Below, one piece after another: positions 1 to 8,800 of a DNA stretch of 48,119 nt. Where the stretch lies: positions 1 to 48,119 of the IMG/VR virus record IMGVR_UViG_3300023174_000255; one strand, 5' to 3'. Position numbers and translations under genes: made by a program. Source of the DNA: a virus. The notes under the pieces are model-generated. The model was not told where the DNA came from. It ran no database searches and saw only the letters and a program-made list of their open reading frames with translations. Position 1 is the first letter of the stretch; each line of letters begins with the position of its first letter.

Positions 1-22
1 GGACAATTCGGACATTTTCTAG

Positions 23-38
23 TGTGATATAGATCACG
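23..38. promoter_or_regulatory. CRP/GlxR-like palindrome S1 with GC-rich box
   Basis: TGTGA-TATAGA-TCACG, one mismatch from the TGTGA-N6-TCACA consensus, runs directly into a GC box (CGGGGGGCGGCC, 37-48). A partial tandem CGGACAT-type element occupies 1-16. The promoter it would serve is not identified, because the next minus-strand unit would start at or beyond the left edge. Confidence 0.5.
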
Positions 39-111
39 GGGGGCGGCCTTTAAAAAGAAAAGTGAGCCGTTTACGTGGACAATGCTCAGGTCCCTTTGGC
101 CACTTATTTAT

Positions 112-152
112 ACTGGCTGTACCGTAGCCAGTTTTGATAGCCCCCTATCAAA
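112..152 (-). terminator. Two abutting hairpins after the first minus-strand gene
   Basis: Hairpin one has perfect 8-bp arms (133-140 and 145-152, CCCC loop). Hairpin two has 7-bp arms (112-118 and 126-132) and abuts it. Both lie just past the stop codon of the 154-633 gene, so they are probably a 3' end. Neither is followed by a clean U-run on the minus strand, so intrinsic termination is not certain. Confidence 0.45.
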
Positions 153-153
153 T

Positions 154-633
154 TTAGTATTGCTCTTCAACTGAAACTTCGTCAACTCTTAAGTCAGCGT
201 CATAGTCATATGAATTTAAATCAGCCTCAATTGTTACGTTACTAATATCAAACTCTGCAAGGTCTGACATTGGAACACTAATTGTTCCACTGAATGATAT
301 TGTACCTTCTACTTCAATTTCCTTAACTGGATTAATACCAAAGTGCTCACATATTGCTACGAGAACTTCTTCTTTAGAATAGTTAGGGTCAAACCATTCT
401 ACAATTTGCTCTTCAAGAGTATTGATTGTGGTACGCATATTGTTTAGCGCTTTTTTATTTGTGCGACCGTTATGCAGTTCCCATTCAATCTCAGTGACCT
501 TGGATGTTAAATATGTTGGCTCTTCAGGAGCAGCATATGTATCAGGAATTGCCTTGTAAGTGACAAGTAGATTTGAATTATATGGTACCTCTAGTTTGTC
601 AATTGTTACTGCGTCTTGTAGTTCGCTTCCCAT
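154..633 (-). CDS. Hypothetical acidic phage protein
   Basis: A 159-residue acidic protein with no recognised domain. The N-terminal part carries a helical stretch (NNMRTTINTLEEQIVEWF), and the C-terminal part is beta-rich with repeated GTI/SGTI motifs and a run of Asp/Glu. I chose the ATG at 633 over an upstream ATG at 699 because an AAAGAGG Shine-Dalgarno lies just before it and the predicted promoter (-10 at 665-670, start near 658) lies inside the longer version. It is the only gene of its unit and is followed by two hairpins. The overall look recalls small hypothetical proteins of actinophages; no function is proposed. Confidence 0.75.
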   Translation of the reverse strand: MGSELQDAVTIDKLEVPYNSNLLVTYKAIPDTYAAPEEPTYLTSKVTEIEWELHNGRTNKKALNNMRTTINTLEEQIVEWFDPNYSKEEVLVAICEHFGINPVKEIEVEGTISFSGTISVPMSDLAEFDISNVTIEADLNSYDYDADLRVDEVSVEEQY

Positions 634-664
634 AGGGGGCCTCTTTCTGTTGTTGTTTAATATA

Positions 665-741
665 ATAATATCAGTAATATTGGGGGAATGCAAATGCATT
701 TCTTAATTAATCTCACATGCTGAGATGTGATTTGCATCACA
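665..741 (-). promoter_or_regulatory. Early promoter with CRP/GlxR-like site S2
   Basis: On the minus strand: -35 TTGCAT (688-693), 17-bp spacer, extended -10 TGATATTAT (hexamer 665-670). Upstream is a perfect palindrome TGTGA-TTTGCA-TCACA (726-741), 55 bp from the -10. Between the promoter and the palindrome, and abutting it, is a second inverted repeat TCTCA-CATGC-TGAGA (711-725). It drives the 154-633 gene. The boxes and palindrome are directly visible; CRP-type control is inferred. Confidence 0.65.
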
Positions 742-742
742 A

Positions 743-764
743 GGCCGCCCCGTTTTTGCGGGGC
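743..764. repeat. GC-rich 10-mer and GC hairpin
   Basis: GGCCGCCCCG (743-752), the reverse complement of the CGGGGCGGCC element also present at 2801, 5658 and 6444, abuts CRP-like site S2. It overlaps a GCCCCG/CGGGGC hairpin (747-764) with a TTTTTG loop. It could help terminate the unit to its right, but no U-run follows on either strand. Confidence 0.5.
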
Positions 765-853
765 AATTAAAAGATGAGCAGTTTAACATCATACTCAGGA
801 TGATCATCTCAGGGGACGCTTGCTACAAGTAGCGTGGAACGCAGAGATGAAAC

Positions 854-1024
854 TTATTTAGTTGTTGATACCATTGCTAAACGGCGTTGACCATTTGCTA
901 ACTGTAAAGAAACACGAGTTAGTTTTGAGTTAATAGGTGAGAACTTTACAATTCTACCTGTAACGCCTGTTTTGCTTGTGGTGAATAAATCACCTAGTTG
1001 GTAAGTGTATCCTCCGAGAGTCAT
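854..1024 (-). CDS. Small hypothetical protein, paralogue of 1630-1800
   Basis: A 56-residue protein starting MTLGGYTYQLGDLFTT. It aligns along its length with the 56-residue product at 1630-1800: both share a YxxGDxxT motif near residue 10, a TG(R/T)I turn, a P.xN segment, RV.L and NGxxR. The pattern suggests a small beta-barrel (SH3/KOW-like) fold, which is inference only. The stop is TAA at 854-856. A GGAGG inside codons 4-5 is not the ribosome site; the likely one is the AGAAAAGGAAAAAC before the ATG. It is the last gene of the unit that begins at 1800. Confidence 0.65.
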   Translation of the reverse strand: MTLGGYTYQLGDLFTTSKTGVTGRIVKFSPINSKLTRVSLQLANGQRRLAMVSTTK

Positions 1025-1116
1025 TTGTTTTTCCTTTTCTGTTATGGTGGTTTGTATTATTTAATTTTACTAGATTTTGACGGGGGAGTCAAATACCCTC
1101 CCCCATCTTTATCTAG

Positions 1117-1539
1117 TTAGAGATAACGAGCAACTGCGTTGTATGTAGAAGTATTAACTACTTCCTCGTCTGTCATTTTGAGAATACGGATAGCGTTAGA
1201 GATTTCCTCTTTTTGGGTTTCGTATTCGTGCTTATGGAGAGTTGTGTATTGACGCTCAGGCTCAACAGGGAAGTCACCTTCTTTAACTGTTAAGTCAAAA
1301 TCAACATTGAGTGTCTTGTTCCAAGAACGATAGTTAGTGCGTAGGTTTTCTGCCTTAGCAATTCTTTCTACCGCAAACTTCACAACTTCTTTACGCCACG
1401 CTTCCATAGCCTTGTCATACTTTGCTTCGTTTGCTTCTTGTGAAGTCCAATCAAGTTCTAATTTATTTAGTGATTGTTCTAGTGCTTTGATTACTCTCTC
1501 AGTAGGTATCTTTACTGAGATTGCTTTTCCTCTTGCCAT
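1117..1539 (-). CDS. Hypothetical helical phage protein (MARGKxISV family look)
   Basis: A 140-residue, charged, mostly helical protein. It opens MARGKAISVKIPTERVIKAL, continues with a long basic/acidic helix (residues 15-70), a segment NVDFDLTVKEGDFPVEPER, and ends in a conserved-looking NAIRILKMTDEEVVNTSTYN. I recall similar small proteins in actinobacteriophages but know no function. It sits in the middle of a three-gene unit between two 56-residue paralogues, with about 90 untranslated bases on either side. ATG at 1539 is preceded by a purine-rich stretch (AAACGGAAAC). Confidence 0.8.
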   Translation of the reverse strand: MARGKAISVKIPTERVIKALEQSLNKLELDWTSQEANEAKYDKAMEAWRKEVVKFAVERIAKAENLRTNYRSWNKTLNVDFDLTVKEGDFPVEPERQYTTLHKHEYETQKEEISNAIRILKMTDEEVVNTSTYNAVARYL

Positions 1540-1587
1540 TTGTTTTGTTTCCGTTTCTTTTAGGTGGGTTTGATGGGGGTTGTATTG

Positions 1588-1611
1588 AGCAGTTTATTGT
1601 CTTGCTCAGGA
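1588..1611. repeat. Short repeat shared with 774-797
   Basis: TGAGCAGTTTA...CTCAGGA at 1588-1611 recurs at 774-797. Each copy lies just downstream of one of the two 56-residue paralogous genes, so gene and 3' element may have been duplicated together. The copy here can also fold (GAGCA/TGCTC). The role is unknown. Confidence 0.4.
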
Positions 1612-1629
1612 CTATTAGCATTTGCTAAA

Positions 1630-1800
1630 TTACTCTGACTTTGCTGTCCAAGTTGTCCAGCGAGTTGAGCCATTAACATCTAACTTAACACGAACATTAC
1701 CATTTGCCTGTGGCACGATTTCTTGAATTGTTCCTGTTTGCTTTGACTTTTGGCTTGTGTAGGTATCTCCTACTTTGTAAGTTGCGTTTGATACTGCCAT
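1630..1800 (-). CDS. Small hypothetical protein, paralogue of 854-1024
   Basis: A 56-residue protein (MAVSNATYKVGDTYTSQKSK...), first gene of its unit. It matches the 854-1024 product in length and motif order: YxxGDxYT, TGTI, PQANGNVRV, NGSTRWTTW. A good AAAGGAG Shine-Dalgarno precedes the ATG at 1800. No domain is recognised; a small beta fold is plausible. The two copies flank the 140-residue gene. Confidence 0.65.
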   Translation of the reverse strand: MAVSNATYKVGDTYTSQKSKQTGTIQEIVPQANGNVRVKLDVNGSTRWTTWTAKSE

Positions 1801-1822
1801 TTGTTTCTCCTTTGTTTTGTTG

Positions 1823-1916
1823 ATAATACAAGTCTAACATTTTTGGTTAAGAAATACAAGTTGATTTCCTAGATTTCTCACATTTTGAGACAATTATTTT
1901 TGTGAGATACATCACA
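1823..1916 (-). promoter_or_regulatory. Early promoter region with CRP/GlxR-like site S3
   Basis: A -10 candidate TATTAT (hexamer 1823-1828) lies 22 nt upstream of the 1800 start; its -35 is weak. Farther upstream are TCTCA-CATTT-TGAGA (1876-1890) and a perfect TGTGA-GATACA-TCACA (1901-1916). An AAAATGTTAG element resembles the AAATGTC motif found inside the other early promoters. The palindrome-to--10 distance (72 bp) is longer than at the other units. Confidence 0.5.
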
Positions 1917-1923
1917 AGACAAA

Positions 1924-1941
1924 ACGGACATAACGGACATT
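1924..1941. repeat. Tandem CGGACAT direct repeat
   Basis: ACGGACATAACGGACATT: two CGGACAT half-sites with a 9-bp period. On the minus strand it reads ATGTCCG-TT-ATGTCCG-TTTTG. The same tandem structure occurs at 6455-6470 and, degenerate, at 10139-10151 and 1-16. It is probably an operator for an unidentified regulator. Confidence 0.5.
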
Positions 1942-2005
1942 ACTTATGACCTAGCCCTGCTGATAGGATTATGATAAACAGGATAGTTATTATTGCTAAC
2001 TCCAT
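1940..2005 (-). CDS. Possible 21-residue membrane peptide
   Basis: A short frame MELAIITILFIIILSAGLGHK starting 7 nt after the GP88 gene stop. It would be a single hydrophobic helix with a charged tail. A GAGGAG sequence ends only 2 nt before the ATG, closer than usual. It is too short to be sure; it could equally be a chance frame in a 3' untranslated region. Confidence 0.3.
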   Translation of the reverse strand: MELAIITILFIIILSAGLGHK

Positions 2006-2011
2006 AACTCC

Positions 2012-2731
2012 TCACTTCTTGCTTGACGAGAATACTATGTCTGCTTTAGAGTATACACACAATGAGCACGAAACGCAAGCGGAGCCATTTGTTGAGATAA
2101 GCGGAATAGCCTTTTTATTTTCAGGACACTTAGCCCCTACCTTACCAATCATTTCTTTCATTTGTTCTTGACCTACCGCAAAATTTTGTGCAAGGTATGC
2201 CATACGAATGCCATAAGTATTTTTTAGATTAACTGCTTCTTTTATATTCTCACTATCTGCTGAATAGTATAAAGATAAATTATCCATATCTTTTAGCATA
2301 ACTGCGGCAGTTTTAACTCGTGTATAAACCCAAAATTGAATATCAGGATTATTAAGGATTACATGCTTCCAAGCAAATGCGTACTCATCCGAAAAGAAAT
2401 CTCCGTCCCAATGAATACGAAATAGCAATGGAGCATTTTTCTTTTCACAATCTTTTCTGAAACCGTTAATCATTTCAGTAAGTAACGCTTCCATAGTATC
2501 ATGGTCTGCGTCTTTAAGTAATTCCCAATTGTTAAGCAATACTCCTTTAACACCAGGGAATAATTTTTCTAACTTTCCTGCGTAACAGATTCTTTCGCAT
2601 ACACTCGTGGCACTAGGACACGAGAAATTCTTTCCACTAGGTAATCCAAAAGTGTTAGCGATACTTGCTTGTTTTCCGTTTGGTGTGACTGCATTTGCGA
2701 CTTTCCTGTCTTTACTTCTAATTAAGGGCAT
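2012..2731 (-). CDS. GP88-family phage protein, cysteine-rich
   Basis: A 239-residue protein resembling the 'gene product 88' family of mycobacteriophages and relatives. It has an N-terminal cysteine group (C38, C45, C49 in FSCPSATSVCERICYAGK) and a C-terminal group (C202, C219, C222, C225 in ACVSCSLC). Between them is a domain with conserved-looking FRIHWDGDFFS, WVYTR and LYYSADS. Two cysteine clusters suggest metal or iron-sulfur binding, but the family's biochemical role is not established. ATG at 2731 lies 6 nt after a TAAGAT -10 box, so a leaderless message is predicted. The gene forms its own unit, perhaps with a tiny membrane peptide behind it. Confidence 0.75.
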   Translation of the reverse strand: MPLIRSKDRKVANAVTPNGKQASIANTFGLPSGKNFSCPSATSVCERICYAGKLEKLFPGVKGVLLNNWELLKDADHDTMEALLTEMINGFRKDCEKKNAPLLFRIHWDGDFFSDEYAFAWKHVILNNPDIQFWVYTRVKTAAVMLKDMDNLSLYYSADSENIKEAVNLKNTYGIRMAYLAQNFAVGQEQMKEMIGKVGAKCPENKKAIPLISTNGSACVSCSLCVYSKADIVFSSSKK

Positions 2732-2737
2732 AGAATA

Positions 2738-2797
2738 ATCTTACCGTAAATCAGGAAAAATATCAACTCGTCTTAATTCGGTGTGTCCAAGATCACA
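2738..2797 (-). promoter_or_regulatory. Promoter of the GP88 gene with CRP-like site S4
   Basis: On the minus strand: -35 TTGATA (2761-2766), 17-bp spacer, -10 TAAGAT (2738-2743), then 6 nt to the ATG (predicted leaderless). The palindrome TGTGT-CCAAGA-TCACA (2782-2797) lies 38 bp upstream of the -10 and abuts a copy of the GC-rich 10-mer (2801-2810). Confidence 0.6.
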
Positions 2798-2813
2798 GGG
2801 GGCCGCCCCGCTT

Positions 2814-3038
2814 TTATTGCAACATCATTAAATTAAATTGCTGATATTCTTCAACCTGAATTATTTCACGTTCGCCAAAATCATTAACAACTTCAATTGT
2901 GTAACCATCAGGCAATGAAATAATTTCTACAATAGATACAACTTCATCGTCAATTAAAATTAAGTCATCTACTTCTAATTGACCTGAAGTTAAAATATCT
3001 ACTTTTACATATTCCATATTTGTTATTGTAGCAGTCAT
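2814..3038 (-). CDS. Small beta-rich hypothetical protein
   Basis: A 74-residue acidic protein with the core QLEVDDLILIDDEVVSIVEI and IEVVNDFGEREIIQV, a strand-turn-strand pattern that suggests a small barrel. I recall similar short proteins in actinophages; the role is unknown. It is the last gene of the unit starting at 4016, 4 nt after the preceding gene. A second in-frame ATG (MEYVKV, residue 8) is a possible alternative start. Confidence 0.7.
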   Translation of the reverse strand: MTATITNMEYVKVDILTSGQLEVDDLILIDDEVVSIVEIISLPDGYTIEVVNDFGEREIIQVEEYQQFNLMMLQ

Positions 3039-3042
3039 TTAT

Positions 3043-3390
3043 TTATTCCTCATCATATTCTAGTGAGAGTGGAAAGTCATCATGAATCATGCATTCGCTG
3101 CAATCGCAATCCATAGAGTGTGGCAACCAAAATTCTAAGTGGTGTTGTTGAGCAATAGCCCATGCTGGTGCAGTAGTTTTATCCTTATAGAGAATCTGAA
3201 AGTCCCCTACTTTAGGCATGGCAATTTCTCTATCAAAGTCCTCGTCAAAATATGCGTCAATAGCATCTATGCAAGGTTGTACCATTTCTGCGGGTACTGG
3301 TGGATAATGATTACCACGCAAGTGATAAAGAATCTGAGTTTCTAAGTCTAATACGGAATCTTTAATTCCTAGTGCAGTTACGCTTCCCAC
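3043..3390 (-). CDS. Hypothetical protein with CxCxxC motif, GTG start
   Basis: A 115-residue protein. Its start is a GTG at 3390, supported by a strong GGAGGT Shine-Dalgarno 6 nt upstream inside the previous gene's end. Visible features: SVLDLETQILYHLRGNHYPP, PCIDAIDAYFDEDFDREI, a WAIAQQHHLEFWLP segment and a C-terminal MDCDCSECMIHDDFP that could bind a metal. It looks like an actinophage hypothetical family; no function is known to me. Fifth gene of the unit. Confidence 0.75.
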   Translation of the reverse strand: MGSVTALGIKDSVLDLETQILYHLRGNHYPPVPAEMVQPCIDAIDAYFDEDFDREIAMPKVGDFQILYKDKTTAPAWAIAQQHHLEFWLPHSMDCDCSECMIHDDFPLSLEYDEE

Positions 3391-3606
3391 TTATTTACCT
3401 CCAACTGTTCCATTAGCATAAAATACCTTAGTGTGCATTTTGCCACTAGGTTCTGATAGATTAACTGTTGAGTATTCGCTAGCCAATCCATAGTCCACAA
3501 ACTTATTAAACTCATTTACTGCGTCAAGCGCATTATCATAGCGTCCAATCCAATGAGGGGACTTATCACCATCATAGGTGCAAGTTACTGAGTATAGGTA
3601 TTCCAT
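3391..3606 (-). CDS. Small hypothetical protein
   Basis: A 71-residue protein, MEYLYSVTCTYDGDKSPHWI..., with a GRYDNALDAVNEFNKFVDYG segment. The start at 3606 is chosen because its ATG overlaps the upstream gene's TAA (TAATG), the coupling style of this whole region; a longer frame from 3618 would overlap more. No family is recognised. Confidence 0.7.
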   Translation of the reverse strand: MEYLYSVTCTYDGDKSPHWIGRYDNALDAVNEFNKFVDYGLASEYSTVNLSEPSGKMHTKVFYANGTVGGK

Positions 3607-3731
3607 TATTCGTTCCAATCTAGTGTGAGTTCTGAGTCTAGCATTTCTGAGTAGTAGGTGTCAATTCCGCAGTTAAAGCAATAGAATCCGTCTATCGCTT
3701 CATTTTCATTACAAAGTACGCAGGTATCCAT
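3606..3731 (-). CDS. 41-residue zinc-ribbon-like microprotein
   Basis: MDTCVLCNENEAIDGFYCFN followed by C: CxxC at residues 4-7 and CxxC at 18-21 make a compact four-cysteine zinc-ribbon pattern, followed by an acidic tail. The start overlaps the previous stop (TAATG at 3731) and the end overlaps the next start (3606). Too short for family assignment, but the motif and tight coupling argue it is translated. Confidence 0.6.
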   Translation of the reverse strand: MDTCVLCNENEAIDGFYCFNCGIDTYYSEMLDSELTLDWNE

Positions 3732-3859
3732 TAGCAATACCAATCCTCTCCAAGAGCCTTTTCAGCACACCAATCAGCATAGTGCTGGTCACACATGCTG
3801 GAAGGATTAGAATCTATCATAGATATTTTATTAGCATTAGCGTAGCAGATATTACACAT
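3731..3859 (-). CDS. 42-residue cysteine-rich microprotein
   Basis: MCNICYANANKISMIDSNPS... with C2, C5, C23, H26, C31 and a terminal Cys. The CxxC...CxxH arrangement suggests zinc binding. The start overlaps the end of the preceding gene by 8 nt (ATGTGTAA) and its stop overlaps the next ATG (TAATG). Function unknown. Confidence 0.55.
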   Translation of the reverse strand: MCNICYANANKISMIDSNPSSMCDQHYADWCAEKALGEDWYC

Positions 3860-4016
3860 TTACAATTTCTCCGTCCTCGTCAAGAATAAGTGCGTGTGGA
3901 TTACATTCACAATACTCAAAGTCATAGTCCTCACCATTAGCATAACCAATTACGCCTTTACCATAGCATAGGTCACAATTAAGTATTTCGTCAAGTAGGT
4001 TTTTCATTTTACTCAT
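3852..4016 (-). CDS. 54-residue CxxCxGxG microprotein
   Basis: First gene of the unit. It contains CDLCYGKGVIGYANGEDYDF then CECNP, a DnaJ-like CxxCxGxG knuckle paired with CxC. It resembles the 39-residue product at 4753-4872 (CNDCFGQGY...CAC), so the two are probably paralogues. ATG at 4016 is preceded by GAAAGGACAGAAA; a second ATG at 4007 is possible. Metal binding is inferred. Confidence 0.6.
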   Translation of the reverse strand: MSKMKNLLDEILNCDLCYGKGVIGYANGEDYDFEYCECNPHALILDEDGEIVNV

Positions 4017-4041
4017 TTTCTGTCCTTTCTTTCATACTGAA

Positions 4042-4118
4042 AGCCTATCAGATTAAACTGACATTTTCAACGACACGCCGTAAGAATCTGGGAAGATCTG
4101 GGAGTGTTTTTAATCACA
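4042..4118 (-). promoter_or_regulatory. Early promoter with CRP-like site S5 and upstream ACGGCGTGTC box
   Basis: On the minus strand: -35 TTGAAA (4065-4070), 17-bp spacer, extended -10 TGATAGGCT (hexamer 4042-4047). AAAATGTCAGT overlaps the -35 and spacer, as in three other early promoters. ACGGCGTGTC (4071-4080) abuts the -35. AGTGT-TTTTAA-TCACA (4103-4118) lies 55 bp upstream of the -10. It drives the six-gene unit 4016-2814. Confidence 0.65.
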
Positions 4119-4128
4119 TTTTAATACC

Positions 4129-4160
4129 TGTGGATAAACCTGTGGATAACGGGGCGCCCC
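4129..4160. promoter_or_regulatory. Two perfect DnaA boxes and a GC palindrome (possible origin element)
   Basis: TGTGGATAA occurs at 4129-4137 and 4141-4149, each the exact complement of the DnaA box TTATCCACA, 12 bp apart in the same orientation. They are followed by GGGGCGCCCC (4151-4160), then an inverted repeat centred on GTTTTAAAAC (about 4171-4191) and a T-rich tract. A third perfect box is at 6400-6408. The boxes are seen directly; origin or DnaA-control function is inferred. Confidence 0.5.
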
Positions 4161-4203
4161 ATTTTTGTGGAAGCAGTTTTAAAACTTGCTTAGGTTTTTT
4201 ATT

Positions 4204-4353
4204 TTATTTTTTACGACGTTCATCACGCAATGCAATTTGCAAACGTCTAACTTCTTTTTGCAATGCAATGTTTTGTTTTATTGAATAATAAATTACAACA
4301 CCAGCACCAAAGAGTGCAATAATAATTGCAAGCAGATCCCATTCAGTTATCAT
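4204..4353 (-). CDS. 49-residue single-pass membrane protein
   Basis: MITEWDLLAIIIALFGAGVV then IYYSIKQ: one membrane helix (about residues 6-23) followed by a basic coiled tail with heptad-like leucines (NIALQKEVRRLQIALRDE). Last gene of its unit, starting on the TAATG overlap with the preceding stop. It could be a small membrane-active early protein or a spanin/holin-like accessory; nothing specific supports either. Confidence 0.6.
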   Translation of the reverse strand: MITEWDLLAIIIALFGAGVVIYYSIKQNIALQKEVRRLQIALRDERRKK

Positions 4354-4541
4354 TAGTTTAACTCCTCATCTAAAATTTCATAGCAGGCTTCTTGAAATTT
4401 AATTGTAGAAAATCTAGGATTATCAGCAGCAAACATATCGTTAAATTCTAATACTAAGTCCTCAAAAGTAAATTCGTCAATTAAGTCCTTGTATCCATTT
4501 AGAATTTGAGCGGTAGCAACATAGTCCTTGCGAGTCATCAT
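4353..4541 (-). CDS. Small hypothetical protein
   Basis: A 62-residue acidic, helical protein (MMTRKDYVATAQILNGYKDL...). Its EFNDMFAADNPRFSTIKFQ stretch is typical of small phage proteins of unknown role that I recall in actinophages. Two ATG codons in tandem overlap the upstream stop; ATG at 4541 or 4538 may be used. It is followed by a TAATG coupling. Confidence 0.65.
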   Translation of the reverse strand: MMTRKDYVATAQILNGYKDLIDEFTFEDLVLEFNDMFAADNPRFSTIKFQEACYEILDEELN

Positions 4542-4753
4542 TAGTTATCACCAACTTTTAGAACAGCCCACTGATTATTTTCATTAAGTTTATCTAGGAA
4601 GCCTTCATAGATAAGAGCATTAATGAAAGCACTTCGTAGCATTTTTTCCATTTCTAATTCGCTAAGATTAAGGAAAGCAGTTAGCAAATTATCAGGCATT
4701 TTGTTTTCGTCAATTTCTGTGATTAAGTTTATTGAGTGTTTTAGTGCTATCAT
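4541..4753 (-). CDS. Small hypothetical protein
   Basis: A 70-residue, leucine-rich helical acidic protein (MIALKHSINLITEIDENKMP...). No motif is recognised. It is coupled by TAATG at both ends to its neighbours, in the five-gene unit 5060-4204. Confidence 0.6.
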   Translation of the reverse strand: MIALKHSINLITEIDENKMPDNLLTAFLNLSELEMEKMLRSAFINALIYEGFLDKLNENNQWAVLKVGDN

Positions 4754-4872
4754 TAGTTATTCTCCTCTACGCAAGCGCAAGGTTCTACATGATAGTCCTC
4801 GTCATTACCAAAGAATAAGTATCCTTGACCGAAACAGTCATTACAAGGAATAGTCATTACTGAGTTTATCAT
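4753..4872 (-). CDS. 39-residue CxxCxGxG microprotein
   Basis: MINSVMTIPCNDCFGQGYLF ... CACVEENN: the CxxCxGxG then CxC pattern is the same as in the 54-residue product of the neighbouring unit (3852-4016), so the two look like paralogues. An internal ATG (MTIPC) is an alternative start. TAATG overlaps at both ends. Zinc binding is inferred from the cysteines. Confidence 0.55.
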   Translation of the reverse strand: MINSVMTIPCNDCFGQGYLFFGNDEDYHVEPCACVEENN

Positions 4873-5060
4873 TACTTCACCAATGCCTTTCCTCGTAGTG
4901 TGCCACGAATACCAAGTGCGTCACACGCAACTTTTACCGAAATACCAACTGGCAATTTCTCAGGGTAAGTGGAGATGAATTGGGCAACTGCTCCCTTACT
5001 AGGGAGAGCGATGTTTTTAACCTCACCGCTAAAGGTTTCTAGTTTCATAGTGTAAGTCAT
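4872..5060 (-). CDS. Small hypothetical protein, first of its unit
   Basis: A 62-residue protein, MTYTMKLETFSGEVKNIALP SKGAVAQFIST... with a basic C-terminus (GIRGTLRGKALVK). The ATG at 5060 has a GGAAG Shine-Dalgarno; an ATG at 5048 is also possible. It is first behind the promoter at 5092-5157. Function unknown. Confidence 0.65.
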   Translation of the reverse strand: MTYTMKLETFSGEVKNIALPSKGAVAQFISTYPEKLPVGISVKVACDALGIRGTLRGKALVK

Positions 5061-5091
5061 TTTGACTTCCTTTCTTTTTGTTTATACTGTA

Positions 5092-5157
5092 AGCCTACCA
5101 TAGGCTACCGACATTTTTGGTATTTCTAGGGGGTGTTGGGGTGTGAGTTACCTCACA
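5092..5157 (-). promoter_or_regulatory. Early promoter with CRP/GlxR-like site S6
   Basis: On the minus strand: -35 CCAAAA (5115-5120), 17-bp spacer containing ATGTCGGT, extended -10 TGGTAGGCT (hexamer 5092-5097). The perfect palindrome TGTGA-GTTACC-TCACA (5142-5157) lies 44 bp upstream of the -10. That equals the spacing at the two plus-strand promoters at 6.5-6.7 kb. The palindrome also contains the stop codon of the next unit's last gene. Confidence 0.7.
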
Positions 5158-5275
5158 AAGCCCCTTCTTGGAATAACCCTAACTCTAAGGTTAAGAGTTC
5201 ATCAGGGGTAGCCTCTGATAGGTCAACCCAACCAGCACCTTGTTCATCAAGGCGAAAAATTTCTATGTATCCCAT
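5153..5275 (-). CDS. 40-residue acidic hypothetical protein
   Basis: MGYIEIFRLDEQGAGWVDLS EATPDELLTLELGLFQEGAL. The start overlaps the upstream stop (TAATG at 5275), and the TGA stop lies inside the CRP-like palindrome of the next promoter. Pattern I-x-I-F-R-L-D and a C-terminal acidic helix; no family recognised. Confidence 0.55.
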   Translation of the reverse strand: MGYIEIFRLDEQGAGWVDLSEATPDELLTLELGLFQEGAL

Positions 5276-5472
5276 TATTCACCAACCTTTACTGCGATTA
5301 TGCGATAGTGGTCACGATAAGAATAAGGTGTTCTAATTAAAACACGATACGCTTGTTTATCTGAACCAAACCAATGGTCAGTTTTTTCTCCATTTATTAT
5401 TTCACCATTTAGAGAGCGTGAATTATACTCTTTACCTTCTAGAAGGTTTTCTATTGTGTATAAGTTAGCCAT
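5275..5472 (-). CDS. Small hypothetical protein
   Basis: A 65-residue protein (MANLYTIENLLEGKEYNSRS...) with a central NGEKTDHWFGSDKQAYRVLI RT segment and a basic YRDHYRIIAVKVG end. First gene of a two-gene unit, with GGAAGTGGCTATAA before its ATG. The function is not recognised. Confidence 0.65.
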   Translation of the reverse strand: MANLYTIENLLEGKEYNSRSLNGEIINGEKTDHWFGSDKQAYRVLIRTPYSYRDHYRIIAVKVGE

Positions 5473-5509
5473 TTATAGCCACTTCCTTTCTTTATTTTCT
5501 TACTCTGTA

Positions 5510-5617
5510 AGTTTATCAGAATTAGCAGACATTTACAACTTACTAGCAAGTAATCTTAAATAATGAGACGCTCAGCGTTGTGATTTACGCCACAAAAATT
5601 GTGTGATCTTAACCACA
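5510..5617 (-). promoter_or_regulatory. Early promoter with two CRP-like sites S7 and S8
   Basis: On the minus strand: -35 TTGTAA (5533-5538), 17-bp spacer with AAATGTCTG, extended -10 TGATAAACT (hexamer 5510-5515). Two palindromes lie farther upstream: TGTGA-TTTACG-CCACA (5579-5594) and TGTGA-TCTTAA-CCACA (5602-5617), 23 bp apart. The nearer one is 63 bp from the -10. Confidence 0.6.
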
Positions 5618-5644
5618 CTACGTAAGTTATGCACAGGTTGTGTA

Positions 5645-5676
5645 CGACACGCCCGAACGGGGCGGCCTTTTTTAGT
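5645..5676 (+). terminator. GC hairpin with T-run, opposite to flanking genes
   Basis: CGACACGCCCGAACGGGGCG folds as CGCCC/GGGCG and is followed by GCC and six T on the plus strand, an intrinsic-terminator shape. No plus-strand gene lies upstream, so it may serve antisense or divergent transcripts. It also contains the CGACACGCC and CGGGGCGGCC elements repeated elsewhere in the region. Confidence 0.4.
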
Positions 5677-5797
5677 CAAACTTATTTTTATGTTTTATTT
5701 TTCTAGTGTATTTTTTTTTAGATGGAATTGCAGTTGCAGCATTACTACGACGCAACTCTTGAATCCGAATTATTTTATTTTTTATTTCTTTTATCAT
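5672..5797 (-). CDS. 41-residue highly basic microprotein
   Basis: MIKEIKNKIIRIQELRRSNA ATAIPSKKKYTRKIKHKNKFD: an N-terminal amphipathic helix and a strongly lysine/arginine-rich C-terminus that would suit nucleic-acid binding. It begins 1 nt after the previous stop. No family is recognised; translation is supported by position in a tight operon only. Confidence 0.5.
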   Translation of the reverse strand: MIKEIKNKIIRIQELRRSNAATAIPSKKKYTRKIKHKNKFD

Positions 5798-5798
5798 T

Positions 5799-5957
5799 TT
5801 ATTTTTCCATTACTGACTTTATAATTTTCAATTGTTTTTCTGTAAGAAGTGCAGAAGCACTACCCCACAAAGCGACATAAGATAATTGGTTGTTATACTT
5901 TTTATCTGCTAATTCTTTAATTTCTTTTAGCAAAGAATCTTGTTTAGTAGTAGTCAT
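5799..5957 (-). CDS. 52-residue hypothetical protein
   Basis: MTTTKQDSLLKEIKELADKK YNNQLSYVALWGSASALLTE ...: helical and basic, with a short hydrophobic centre (SYVALWGSASALL). Coupled to the previous gene by TAATG at 5957. Function unknown. Confidence 0.55.
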   Translation of the reverse strand: MTTTKQDSLLKEIKELADKKYNNQLSYVALWGSASALLTEKQLKIIKSVMEK

Positions 5958-6079
5958 TATTTAAGTCCTTTCGTTTTTTTAATTACTCGCTTGTGATTAC
6001 AAACTGAGCAGATAAGGTGGAAAGTATTTTTATACCAACGCTCTTTCCAAAATAGCGAATTACATTTAGGACAATTCAT
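5957..6079 (-). CDS. 40-residue zinc-ribbon microprotein
   Basis: MNCPKCNSLFWKERWYKNTF HLICSVCNHKRVIKKTKGLK: CPxC at residues 3-6 and CxxC at 24-27 with intervening aromatic and basic residues form a classical minimal zinc ribbon. TAATG overlap at both ends. It could bind nucleic acid or a host protein; no target is visible. Confidence 0.6.
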   Translation of the reverse strand: MNCPKCNSLFWKERWYKNTFHLICSVCNHKRVIKKTKGLK

Positions 6080-6258
6080 TAGTTAGACACAAACCAATCT
6101 GTCCACATAGGTAGACGCTCAGGGTCTCCATCAAAGTAGAAACGCTCAATGTTACTTTCGCAAATTTCGCAGAAAGTATACTGATTATCTCCAACTTCTG
6201 AGATAGCAGATTTATTAGGTGTGTGCTTCTTGCACACTGTGATTATTGTTGAATTCAT
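6079..6258 (-). CDS. 59-residue cysteine-containing protein, first of its unit
   Basis: MNSTIITVCKKHTPNKSAIS ... FCEICESNIERFYFDGDPER: a CxxH near residue 9 and a CxxC near residue 30 suggest a split zinc knuckle, followed by an acidic aromatic tail (PMWTDWFVSN). AGAAAGGAA precedes the ATG at 6258. It heads the four-gene unit 6258-5672. Confidence 0.6.
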   Translation of the reverse strand: MNSTIITVCKKHTPNKSAISEVGDNQYTFCEICESNIERFYFDGDPERLPMWTDWFVSN

Positions 6259-6308
6259 TTGAATTCCTTTCTAGTTTGAGAACCTTTCTCAACTTTCTTT
6301 ATAATAGA

Positions 6309-6386
6309 AGTATAACACCTACCACTGACATTTTAGGGTGTACAAAACGGACATTTAGTACATAAGCCACTGTGAGTTACACCACA
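6309..6386 (-). promoter_or_regulatory. Early promoter with CRP-like site S9
   Basis: On the minus strand: -35-like CCTAAA (6332-6337), 17-bp spacer containing ATGTCAGT, -10 TATACT (6309-6314). The palindrome TGTGA-GTTACA-CCACA (6371-6386) is 56 bp upstream of the -10. A single CGGACAT half-site lies between them at about 6348-6354. It drives the 6258-5672 unit. Confidence 0.6.
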
Positions 6387-6393
6387 TTTTTAG

Positions 6394-6424
6394 GGGTGAT
6401 TATCCACAACTTAAAGCATCACCC
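6394..6424. promoter_or_regulatory. DnaA box inside a hairpin
   Basis: A perfect DnaA box TTATCCACA (6400-6408) lies between perfect 7-bp arms GGGTGAT (6394-6400) and ATCACCC (6418-6424). It sits in the divergent region between the minus- and plus-strand early units, between CRP-like sites S9 and S10. An origin or regulatory role is inferred. Confidence 0.45.
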
Positions 6425-6430
6425 TGTGGA

Positions 6431-6470
6431 CGACACGCCCGAACGGGGCGGCCCATGTCCGATATGTCCG
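6431..6470. repeat. CGACACGCC box, GC-rich 10-mer and tandem ATGTCCG repeat
   Basis: The same string of elements as at 5645 (CGACACGCCCGAACGGGGCG then GCC) is followed here by ATGTCCG-AT-ATGTCCG (6455-6461, 6464-6470), a direct repeat with 9-bp period. These elements recur only in intergenic DNA of the first 10 kb as far as I could see. Confidence 0.5.
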
Positions 6471-6477
6471 ATTTTGA

Positions 6478-6543
6478 TGTGGTCTAAATCACACACGACA
6501 CGCCGTGTTAGCACTTGACTTTTTGATATTTCTGTGATAGTAT
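6478..6543 (+). promoter_or_regulatory. Early rightward promoter 1 with CRP-like site S10
   Basis: -35 TTGACT (6515-6520), 17-bp spacer, extended -10 TGATAGTAT (hexamer 6538-6543). TGTGG-TCTAAA-TCACA (6478-6493) is 21 bp from the -35 and 44 bp from the -10. CGACACGCC (6496-6504) lies between. Spacing and sequence are repeated at promoter 2 (6630-6695). Confidence 0.75.
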
Positions 6544-6579
6544 TCTACTATACAAATTAAATAGAGATAGATAAGGTCA

Positions 6580-6630
6580 ATGAGCCTAGCAAATAAAACG
6601 AACAGATGTTCGGATGAGCCTAGCGAATAA
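6580..6630 (+). CDS. Possible 16-residue leader peptide
   Basis: ATG at 6580 opens MSLANKTNRCSDEPSE, ending at TAA 6628-6630, behind an AAGG-containing sequence about 30 nt after the predicted start of promoter 1. Its start overlaps the TGAGCCTAGC(A/G)AATAA repeat. It may be a leader peptide or a chance frame. Confidence 0.2.
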   Translation: MSLANKTNRCSDEPSE

Positions 6631-6754
6631 GTGACCTAAATCACACAGAATATACGGCGTGTCATCTTGACTTTTCAGGAAATGTATGCTAGTATTACTA
6701 CTATAAAATTAAATAAGAAATCCTAAGTGAGCCCCTACTAAGTAGGGCAAATAA
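6581..6754 (+). repeat. Three leader copies of TGAGCC...GC(A/G)AATAA
   Basis: Copies at 6581-6596, 6615-6630 and 6728-6754. The third is expanded by a hairpin (CCTAC-TAA-GTAGG) between TGAGCC and GCAAATAA. All lie in the 5' leader RNA of the rightward early operon. CGAACA-GA-TGTTCG (about 6599-6612) is another small hairpin between copies 1 and 2. The function is unknown. Confidence 0.45.
6630..6695 (+). promoter_or_regulatory. Early rightward promoter 2 with CRP-like site S11
   Basis: -35 TTGACT (6667-6672), 17-bp spacer, extended -10 TGCTAGTAT (hexamer 6690-6695). AGTGA-CCTAAA-TCACA (6630-6645) is again 21 bp from the -35 and 44 bp from the -10. ACGGCGTGTC (6654-6663) lies between. The leader to the first gene is about 110 nt. 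Confidence 0.75.
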
Positions 6755-8389: not shown

Positions 8390-8800
8390 TTAGATTTCTA
8401 CAAGAATGTCGTACTTGTCAGGGTATGTTCCACTTTGCTCTAAAACAAAACCTTTTTCTCTATCAAATAAATTATAGTCCATAGACACAATATCAAAGTC
8501 TTCACGAATTGTAAGAAGCACTTCAGACAAGTTCAATTCTCCGCAGGTATACAAATCAAACTGTACTAATCCTGGATCCGCTTCATCCCATATATGAAAT
8601 GCTATATGGCTAGTCTCAATCATTACAATGGCAGTCAAACCTCTATTTCCTGGTTTGTCAACATAAGAAGCAAAAGGTCCTTTAATAATCTTCATATCAA
8701 TGCGTTCAACTAAACGCTTAAGAAAGTCTATTGCCATATCCTCATTGTTCATTGGATTTTTTACTTTGGCATTAATTAACAAATGTTTGTGAAATAACAT
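8390..8800 (-). CDS. speD: S-adenosylmethionine decarboxylase-like protein
   Basis: A 136-residue protein matching the prokaryotic SpeD/AdoMetDC pattern. ETSHIAFHIWDEADPG carries the serine that would become the pyruvoyl cofactor (S64, followed by H65), the proton-donor histidine H69, and FDLYTCG with C86, in the usual order; there are two extra residues between S and C relative to the Thermotoga enzyme I recall. The length fits the short bacterial form. AdoMetDC produces decarboxylated AdoMet for spermidine synthesis; some recent work assigns other decarboxylase activities to relatives. No spermidine synthase is nearby. It has its own promoter and a GGGGGAA ribosome site. Confidence 0.75.
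   Translation of the reverse strand: MLFHKHLLINAKVKNPMNNEDMAIDFLKRLVERIDMKIIKGPFASYVDKPGNRGLTAIVMIETSHIAFHIWDEADPGLVQFDLYTCGELNLSEVLLTIREDFDIVSMDYNLFDREKGFVLEQSGTYPDKYDILVEI

Follow-up and report, generated by a model that had tools for sequence, protein, structure and literature searches.

Which protein reads the repeated palindromes of the form TGTGA-N6-TCACA that crowd one end of this phage DNA, and what does it do to the adjacent promoters? A rescan of the window, i.e. the whole analysed stretch of 48,119 nucleotides, recovered each of the eleven boxes of the original prediction, three of them exact, seven with one mismatch and one with two. A central TA, a trait of the GlxR consensus, is present in seven of the eleven, as had been claimed. 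The boxes, the promoters assigned to them and the gene used as a query are listed below; gap denotes the distance between box and -10 element.

23-38, minus strand: box TGTGATATAGATCACG, one mismatch, central TA; it would serve a leftward unit past the window end, with the promoter outside the window
665-693, minus strand: promoter TTGCAT-N17-TATTAT
726-741, minus strand: exact box, gap 55 bp to the -10 at 665-670
1901-1916, minus strand: exact box, central TA, gap 64 bp to the -10 at 1831-1836 (weak -35; -10 picked by judgement)
2012-2731, minus strand: gene of the GP88 family (PF17338)
2782-2797, minus strand: box preceding the GP88 gene, one mismatch, gap 38 or 44 bp (two candidate -10 elements)
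4042-4063, minus strand: type B promoter TGTCAG-N10-TAGGCT (also TTGAAA-N17)
4103-4118, minus strand: box with two mismatches, gap 55 bp to the -10 at 4042-4047
5092-5113, minus strand: type B promoter TGTCGG-N10-TAGGCT
5142-5157, minus strand: exact box, central TA, gap 44 bp to the -10 at 5092-5097
5510-5531, minus strand: type B-like promoter TGTCTG-N10-TAAACT
5579-5594, minus strand: box, one mismatch, central TA, gap 63 bp to the -10 of promoter 5510-5531
5602-5617, minus strand: second box of promoter 5510-5531, one mismatch, gap 86 bp to the same -10
6309-6330, minus strand: type B promoter TGTCAG-N10-TATACT
6371-6386, minus strand: box, one mismatch, central TA, gap 56 bp to the -10 at 6309-6314
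6478-6493, plus strand: box, one mismatch, central TA, gap 44 bp to the rightward -10 at 6538-6543
6515-6543, plus strand: type A promoter TTGACT-N17-TAGTAT
6630-6645, plus strand: box, one mismatch, central TA, gap 44 bp to the rightward -10 at 6690-6695
6667-6695, plus strand: type A promoter TTGACT-N17-TAGTAT

The pattern was strongly enriched over shuffled DNA. At up to one mismatch 10 boxes were observed in positions 1-6700 versus 0.28 expected, with a maximum of 2 in 300 dinucleotide shuffles, while the other 41 kb (6701 to the end) held 0 versus 2.56 expected. Among the 1024 five-base palindromes with an N6 spacer TGTGA-N6-TCACA ranked first in positions 1-6700, the runner-up reaching 4. 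At up to two mismatches positions 1-6700 gave 13 matches, which equals the maximum of 300 shuffles (mean 3.9), and the whole window gave 24, under the shuffled mean of 34.6. The box signal is local and confined to near-perfect boxes. Two further two-mismatch matches, at 1486 and 5301, lie inside the open reading frames 1117-1539 and 5275-5472, respectively.

With the GP88-family gene as the query for relatives, the boxes proved to be conserved. Every one of the 80 relatives fetched first carries 3 to 17 boxes, and all 99 further, non-overlapping loci carry 1 to 15, in total 946 versus 52 for a control pattern. With both strands taken into account, 60% of the 521 distinct sites had T as their eighth base, in agreement with a central TA. 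The loci L091 and L352 have one box each despite being related; a classification of L091 as a distant relative, made from a figure of 48%, was dropped at 71% and 83% over two parts. Three other contigs (L238, L264 and L260) are rich in boxes and have no homologues of the window's genes. The original prediction had the phage tie its whole early programme to the host's cAMP-CRP/GlxR state, which is too wide: the boxes are confined to a single block of some 6.7 kb, and a relative of 109 kb has 14 of its 16 boxes within a 20.7-kb stretch. That this block is early we infer from gene order.

The promoters were compared as two types with different -35 regions, TTGAC-N18/19-TANNNT (type A) and TGTCRG-N10-TANNNT (type B). 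Gaps of 33/34, 44, 54 and 64/65 bp were common to both, with a periodicity of 10.3 bp. In the first set (n = 158) the Rayleigh power was 67.3 at 10.3 bp versus 1.9 at 7 and 8 bp, and the phasing was seen for each promoter type taken separately. It was repeated in the further loci, whose flanks are dissimilar to those of the first set, with a Rayleigh power of 82.9 at 10.3 bp (n = 214). A promoter of type A or B was located 25 to 80 bp away from 526 of 819 boxes, 428 of them in register; for the controls the counts were 125 among 2430 positions drawn at random and 160 among 1633 positions displaced by 150 bp. The gaps of 44 bp at 5092, 6538 and 6690, of 55 bp at 665 and 4042 and of 56 bp at 6309 were reproduced, and the one-turn difference read from them in the manner of class I activation belongs to a series of 33/44/54/65 bp that recurs in the further loci. 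Judged from the DNA, such phased gaps at two promoter types are the layout expected of an activator that sits 5' of the promoter and always on the same side of the double helix. Since both types keep one register from box to -10, the predicted bound protein probably acts on the polymerase rather than on one type of -35 element.

Class I CRP-dependent promoters such as E. coli lac, at which CRP contacts the C-terminal domain of the polymerase alpha subunit, share the arrangement of a box 5' of the -35 element and steps of helical turns. The class I register of E. coli is -61.5 and helical turns from there, and the gap of lac is 41 bp. Compared with lac the phage gaps of 33/44/54/65 bp, counted to predicted -10 elements, would follow a register about 3 bp longer, and the phage promoters of type B differ in having TGTCRG 10 bp from the -10.

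A phage-encoded CRP as the reader of the boxes was rejected, none being found in the records searched (window, relatives and cultured phages; many are fragments). There was no CRP-family protein in the window and no CRP domain in 48 viral relatives and 4 cultured phages, many of these records being fragments; HTH_Crp_2 was found in 0 of 21 phage records, and the cNMP domain was likewise absent from the phage records searched. WhiB, taken as a mark of actinophages, scored above cut-off in 16 of the 21 records, including all 8 longer than 85 kb, the 48-kb window itself being without it. Thus the hosts of the box-bearing clade are probably actinobacteria. As a separate observation, the Shine-Dalgarno motif AGAAAGG precedes 5 of 57 chosen starts versus 0.27 in shuffles, a weak host marker that fits actinobacteria.

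The best candidate host order was reached via one bin (G010) that contains the phage contig L091. Such bin-based evidence is weak because bins mix in phage contigs. A screen of 296 genomes of its order found GP88 in G010 alone, and a screen of 388 genomes of its class found it in G009, besides one weak match; no CRP was seen in G010 itself. The pattern Box-N19-22-TTGAC, with 39 matches in 81 viral sequences, was discarded as a host pointer, as 3 matches in 396 Actinomycetota genomes (control 0) singled out no host. Of the 31 genomes sampled from the candidate order, 30 encode a Crp/GlxR orthologue. It matches PDB entries 3i54 and 4cyd with E values of 1e-75 to 1e-79, and the match covers the full length of 4cyd/4byy and 3i54/3d0s, which we take to be GlxR and M. 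tuberculosis Crp, respectively. All 12 orthologues read contain the segment TQEELAQLVGASRETVNKALADFA, and a matching DNA-reading helix was found in this protein of the candidate order.

The search for adenylate cyclases in the candidate order covered class III and CYTH proteins and detected neither in the 31 genomes. The order had no box excess of its own either (2 exact boxes in 17 genomes versus 5 for the control pattern), and in the genome G070 the phage-derived site profile showed no enrichment between genes and no excess of sites. The lack of these cyclases and of a box excess leaves the proposed coupling to host cAMP unsupported. Should the candidate order be the host, its GlxR would probably act without cAMP, and the boxes would be a standing boost, not a nutrient sensor.

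The boxes are probably binding sites for a host activator of the GlxR/Crp type that would recruit polymerase to phage promoters. After entry of the phage DNA into an actinobacterial cell, host GlxR would occupy the boxes at whole helical turns 5' of the polymerase site, and box-bound GlxR would bring polymerase to the roughly nine promoters that drive a single phage gene block, in the mode of CRP at class I promoters. We infer both binding and activation from the sites and their spacing. The boxes match the consensus of Corynebacterium glutamicum GlxR, TGTGANNTANNTCACA, as given in PMC4254451 and as correctly quoted in the original prediction. The system differs from GlxR of C. glutamicum and Crp of mycobacteria in that the sites are on phages and that neither class III nor CYTH cyclases occur in the 31 genomes sampled from the candidate order.

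That another phage or host protein reads the boxes is unlikely. Most phage genes in the block belong to no known family and the candidate host genomes show no excess of boxes, which would suit such a reader; against it stand the fit with the consensus of GlxR, central TA included (PMC4254451), the Crp/GlxR orthologue of the candidate order and the absence of HTH_Crp_2 and cNMP domains from the phage records searched. Host CRP/GlxR might instead silence phage genes through the boxes until conditions change. A precedent is phage T1, whose pir, dam and recE promoters are repressed by cAMP-CRP (PMC6737242); it resembles the present case, with its probable GlxR/Crp sites, in having host CRP on several phage promoters. 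Yet the boxes lie 33 to 65 bp 5' of the -10, off the core promoter and helically phased with the -10, and whereas repression was shown for T1, the geometry in the present case is that of activation, at about nine promoters and conserved across a clade; repression is quite unlikely.

A decoy array that titrates host GlxR and alters host transcription, with secondary effects on phage promoters, would account for at least 10 near-perfect boxes per phage versus few in candidate host genomes. Such a decoy requires no fixed spacing, while the boxes are strongly phased to -10 elements, and we regard it as very unlikely. Chance or base composition may be invoked for the two-mismatch matches, fewer across the window than in shuffles, and is virtually precluded by the enrichment of near-perfect boxes, their presence in relatives, the helical phasing and its repetition in further loci.

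In favour of a host activator of the GlxR type, the cultured 'Ca. Planktophila' phages LanE43-AprE7 (E7) and LanE43-AprF5 (F5), of another lineage, have two exact boxes each, a number reached for E7 in one of at least 60 shuffles. At one mismatch there was no excess, with 2 and 4 boxes versus 2.2 and 2.0 in shuffles. E7 has TTTACA at a gap of 11 and TTGACT at a gap of 31 from its boxes, and F5 has neither TTGAC nor TTTACA within 45 bp of either exact box. Both differ from the clade of the window by 39-kb genomes, a GC content of 45% and fewer boxes. The paper on the Planktophila phages mentions whiB and a sigma factor and no such boxes (PMC10202952), and a literature search of open-licence papers did not turn up any description of CRP/GlxR boxes in phages of freshwater actinobacteria. 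The Stanwilliamsviridae of Streptomyces have the closest cultured-phage portals (45-46% identity among the matches listed). They differ in showing no box excess, with 4, 2 and 3 boxes in BoomerJR, Daubenski and Tomas versus 4, 3 and 3 for the control.

Individual phages are known whose promoters are acted on by host CRP. In the present case a single regulator of the host seems to act at about nine promoters in the window and to have been kept across a large clade. The near-perfect sites, spaced from the promoters by whole helical turns, suggest that a large group of freshwater actinobacterial viruses uses a host gene-control protein as an on-switch. For this group of freshwater actinophages, whose likely hosts lack CRISPR spacers from which a host could be predicted (PMC10202952), the boxes provide a sequence signature. 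The collected boxes, over 1700 in number and each with its spacing, form a natural library on the activation of actinobacterial polymerase by GlxR/Crp. The finding raises the question of whether GlxR senses any signal, and which, in bacteria without a recognised adenylate cyclase, a question that E7 and F5 make testable. Possible, though rather doubtful, is a wider view in which GlxR persists in streamlined freshwater actinobacteria as a signal-free DNA-binding protein, having lost its cAMP supply and showing no excess of strong sites in the host genome, and at least two phage lineages have made it their main activator. If this is true, most of the strong GlxR sites present during infection would belong to the phages, giving a host protein a regulon that phages own.

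The eleven CRP/GlxR-type boxes (TGTGA-N6-TCACA) of the original prediction were all recovered at their positions by a pattern search of the window. With up to one mismatch they were enriched over chance in 1-6700: 3 boxes there are exact, and the count rises to 10 when one mismatch is allowed; 300 shuffles keeping dinucleotides gave means of 0.007 and 0.28 with maxima of 1 and 2. TGTGA ranked first among 1024 five-base palindromes with an N6 spacer (10 matches, runner-up 4). No box with at most one mismatch was present in 6701-48119 vs 2.56 expected. At up to two mismatches the signal weakened, the whole window containing 24 matches vs 34.6 expected in shuffles.

From 1 to about 6.3 kb the window carries several groups of short leftward genes; short rightward genes start at 6.8 kb and are followed by structural genes. 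In the gene layout as interpreted the boxes are intergenic, while some mechanical ORFs run over them and the end of ORF 5153-5275 reaches into box 5142-5157. The GC content of this 48,119-bp IMG/VR virus record is 31-42% (2-kb steps), and its genes include those for ribonucleotide reductase, a portal protein and a head maturation protease. Because relatives reach up to 114 kb, the window is probably a fragment of a larger genome. An S-adenosylmethionine decarboxylase gene (PF02675) lies at 8390-8800 (-).

Conservation of the boxes in related phages was seen in two sets of loci. The GP88 gene (2012-2731, PF17338) yielded at least 594 viral stretches, and each of the best 80 had 3-17 boxes at up to one mismatch. 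As a check on selection, the GP88 protein of contig L081 and the window gene 3043-3390 were used as further queries. They gave 153 new loci; the 99 without overlap with earlier loci all carried boxes (1-15 each), 946 in total vs 52 for a control pattern. Box counts in eight whole records (86-114 kb) were 11-20 each, vs 1-4 for the backward pattern. Two relatives were poor in boxes, L352 with one in 12 kb and L091 with one in 4.7 kb (GP88 identity 71% and 83% in two parts). No excess over the control appeared in cultured phages whose portal or GP88 genes are related (BoomerJR 4 vs 4, Daubenski 2 vs 3, Tomas 3 vs 3, KingCyrus 1 vs 0). L081 itself is a 110-kb phage contig of the clade (GP88 69%, 7 boxes in 19.8 kb), whose place in a bin titled cyanobacterium is probably a binning error.

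When viral contigs were scanned for box-N19-22-TTGAC, 30 of 80 loci among the matches listed had at least five boxes, and 29 of these 30 show homology to the 30 window genes tried. Groups of 6, 4 and 4 boxes, some with TTGAC downstream, occur in L238 (7611-8476), L264 (7011-8467) and L260 (9457-9617); homologues of the window genes tried were not detected there, and these are perhaps other phages with the same kind of regulator. A direct repeat, TGTCC-N4-TGTCC, often lies close to a box and was counted 130 times in the 80 relatives vs 0-2 for periods 7, 8, 10, 11 and 12.

Direct repeats TGTCC-N4-TGTCC in the window
1-14 (-)
1645-1658 (+), inside a gene
1926-1939 (-)
6456-6469 (+)

Promoter spacing was analysed in both flanks of 819 boxes from 81 sequences, clustered at 70% identity to 710, which reduces and does not abolish shared ancestry among the flanks. 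Two promoter types emerged. One has TTGAC 18 or 19 bases from the -10 box (180 and 109 vs 1-17 elsewhere). The other has TGTCAG at 10 bases, 287 times in the 81 viral sequences vs 1-8 at N8-9 and N11-14, and only 2 times in the bacterial genome G070. By its place this element resembles the box of T4 middle promoters.

TGTCRG elements 10 bp ahead of the -10 box, within the usual spacer, in the window
4042-4063 (-)
5092-5113 (-)
6309-6330 (-)

For both types the gap from box to -10 was mostly 44, 54 or 64/65 bp, with a smaller group at 33/34. At a period of 10.3 bp the Rayleigh power was 67.3 (n=158, 28-80 bp), vs 1.9 at 7 and 8 bp. This periodicity was repeated in the further loci, in flanks sharing under 70% identity with the first set (82.9 at 10.3 bp, n=214; 4.1 at 7 bp, 1.6 at 8 bp). 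TTGAC alone, the -10 being ignored, peaked at 9.6 bp with a power of 46.9 (99.9% point of the uniform null, 11.2). A strict promoter lay 25-80 bp from 526 of the 819 boxes, 428 of them in register; controls gave 125/2430 for random positions and 160/1633 for positions shifted by 150 bp. The predicted gaps of 44 and 55-56 bp were found again in the window, where the order is 55, 64, 38 or 44, 55, 44, 63 (and 86), 56, 44, 44; four boxes only (5142, 6371, 6478, 6630) have strict promoters, box 4103 with two mismatches falls outside that set, and the gaps of the remaining boxes depend on looser patterns. Of 36 rightward genes checked in 9802-38014 (+), 12 have TATAAT in the 40 bases next to the start codon, at a distance of 5-24, often as TGNTATAAT; these are possibly leaderless late promoters without boxes.

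Boxes also occur in a second lineage. L245, a 39.7-kb contig (GC 44% over 1.9 kb examined), carries three boxes, with gaps of 20, 10 and 10 to TTGACT. A 1-kb stretch, judged a terminase from Streptomyces phage matches, shares 73-74% identity with OX376640 and OX376641, by their record titles LanE43-AprE7 (E7) and LanE43-AprF5 (F5), which were isolated on 'Ca. Planktophila' (PMC10202952). Both records (L306 and L305) bear the database organism name 'Caudovirales sp. ct2KA10', with host and annotation blank.

Boxes of E7 and F5 outside ORFs of at least 70 aa
E7, 1435 and 2477, exact
F5, 22684 and 22761, exact
F5, 23522, one mismatch

A fourth F5 box, at 3256, is inside a gene. Exact boxes expected from 60 shuffles were 0.08 for E7 (maximum 2) and 0.02 for F5 (maximum 1); at up to one mismatch there was no excess (E7 2 vs 2.2, F5 4 vs 2.0). 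One E7 box has TTTACA at gap 11. The other is flanked on one side by TTGACC (gap 5) and TTGACT (gap 31), and on the opposite side by TTGACC (gap 13). F5 has TTTACA at gap 11; its exact boxes have no TTGAC or TTTACA element within 45 bp. We regard E7 and F5 as moderate support.

Profile searches detected no cNMP-binding domain in the window, 48 viral relatives or four cultured phages, and no HTH_Crp_2 in 21 phage records. WhiB was above cut-off in 16 of the 21 records, including all 8 longer than 85 kb, and was absent from the window; among 14 genomes the control search matched C. glutamicum alone. These WhiB matches point to actinobacteria as the most likely hosts. L091 belongs to the 'Actinomycetota' bin G010. 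Genomes sampled from the order of G010 measure 1.2-2.2 Mb. A CRP-family protein is encoded in 30 of the 31; none was found in G010 itself. All 12 such proteins read contain TQEELAQLVGASRETVNKALADFA. Two match the structures of M. tuberculosis Crp (3i54/3d0s) and 4cyd/4byy/3r6s, which include GlxR chains, with E of 1e-75 to 1e-79, and an aligned segment differs from 3i54 by one residue. Size and GC agree with 'Ca. Nanopelagicales' as described in PMC5301498 and PMC6802176; we infer that the order is this one, and it is the best candidate for the host order of the window.

We consider it likely that host GlxR, bound to the upstream boxes, recruits polymerase in class I style; in this reading binding, activation and timing are predicted, as is the host of the window. 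Less probably, the boxes serve repression of phage genes as in T1, for which PMC6737242 provides a precedent, form a decoy array, or are read by a regulator other than GlxR. Against the simple reading, the candidate order showed no box excess (2 exact in 17 genomes vs 5 for the control), and a phage-derived profile at 11 bits or more found 1 intergenic site in G070 vs 1.6 for permuted profiles.

Host CRP action on phage promoters is already known; for clade-wide phased GlxR/CRP boxes in actinophages, searches of an open-licence library of papers listed no report. The proposed coupling of the phage to host cAMP was not supported in the candidate order: neither a class III cyclase nor a CYTH protein was found in any of the 31 genomes, C. 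glutamicum being positive in both control searches. Thus GlxR may act independently of cAMP in this order, a reading that applies here only if the true host belongs to it.
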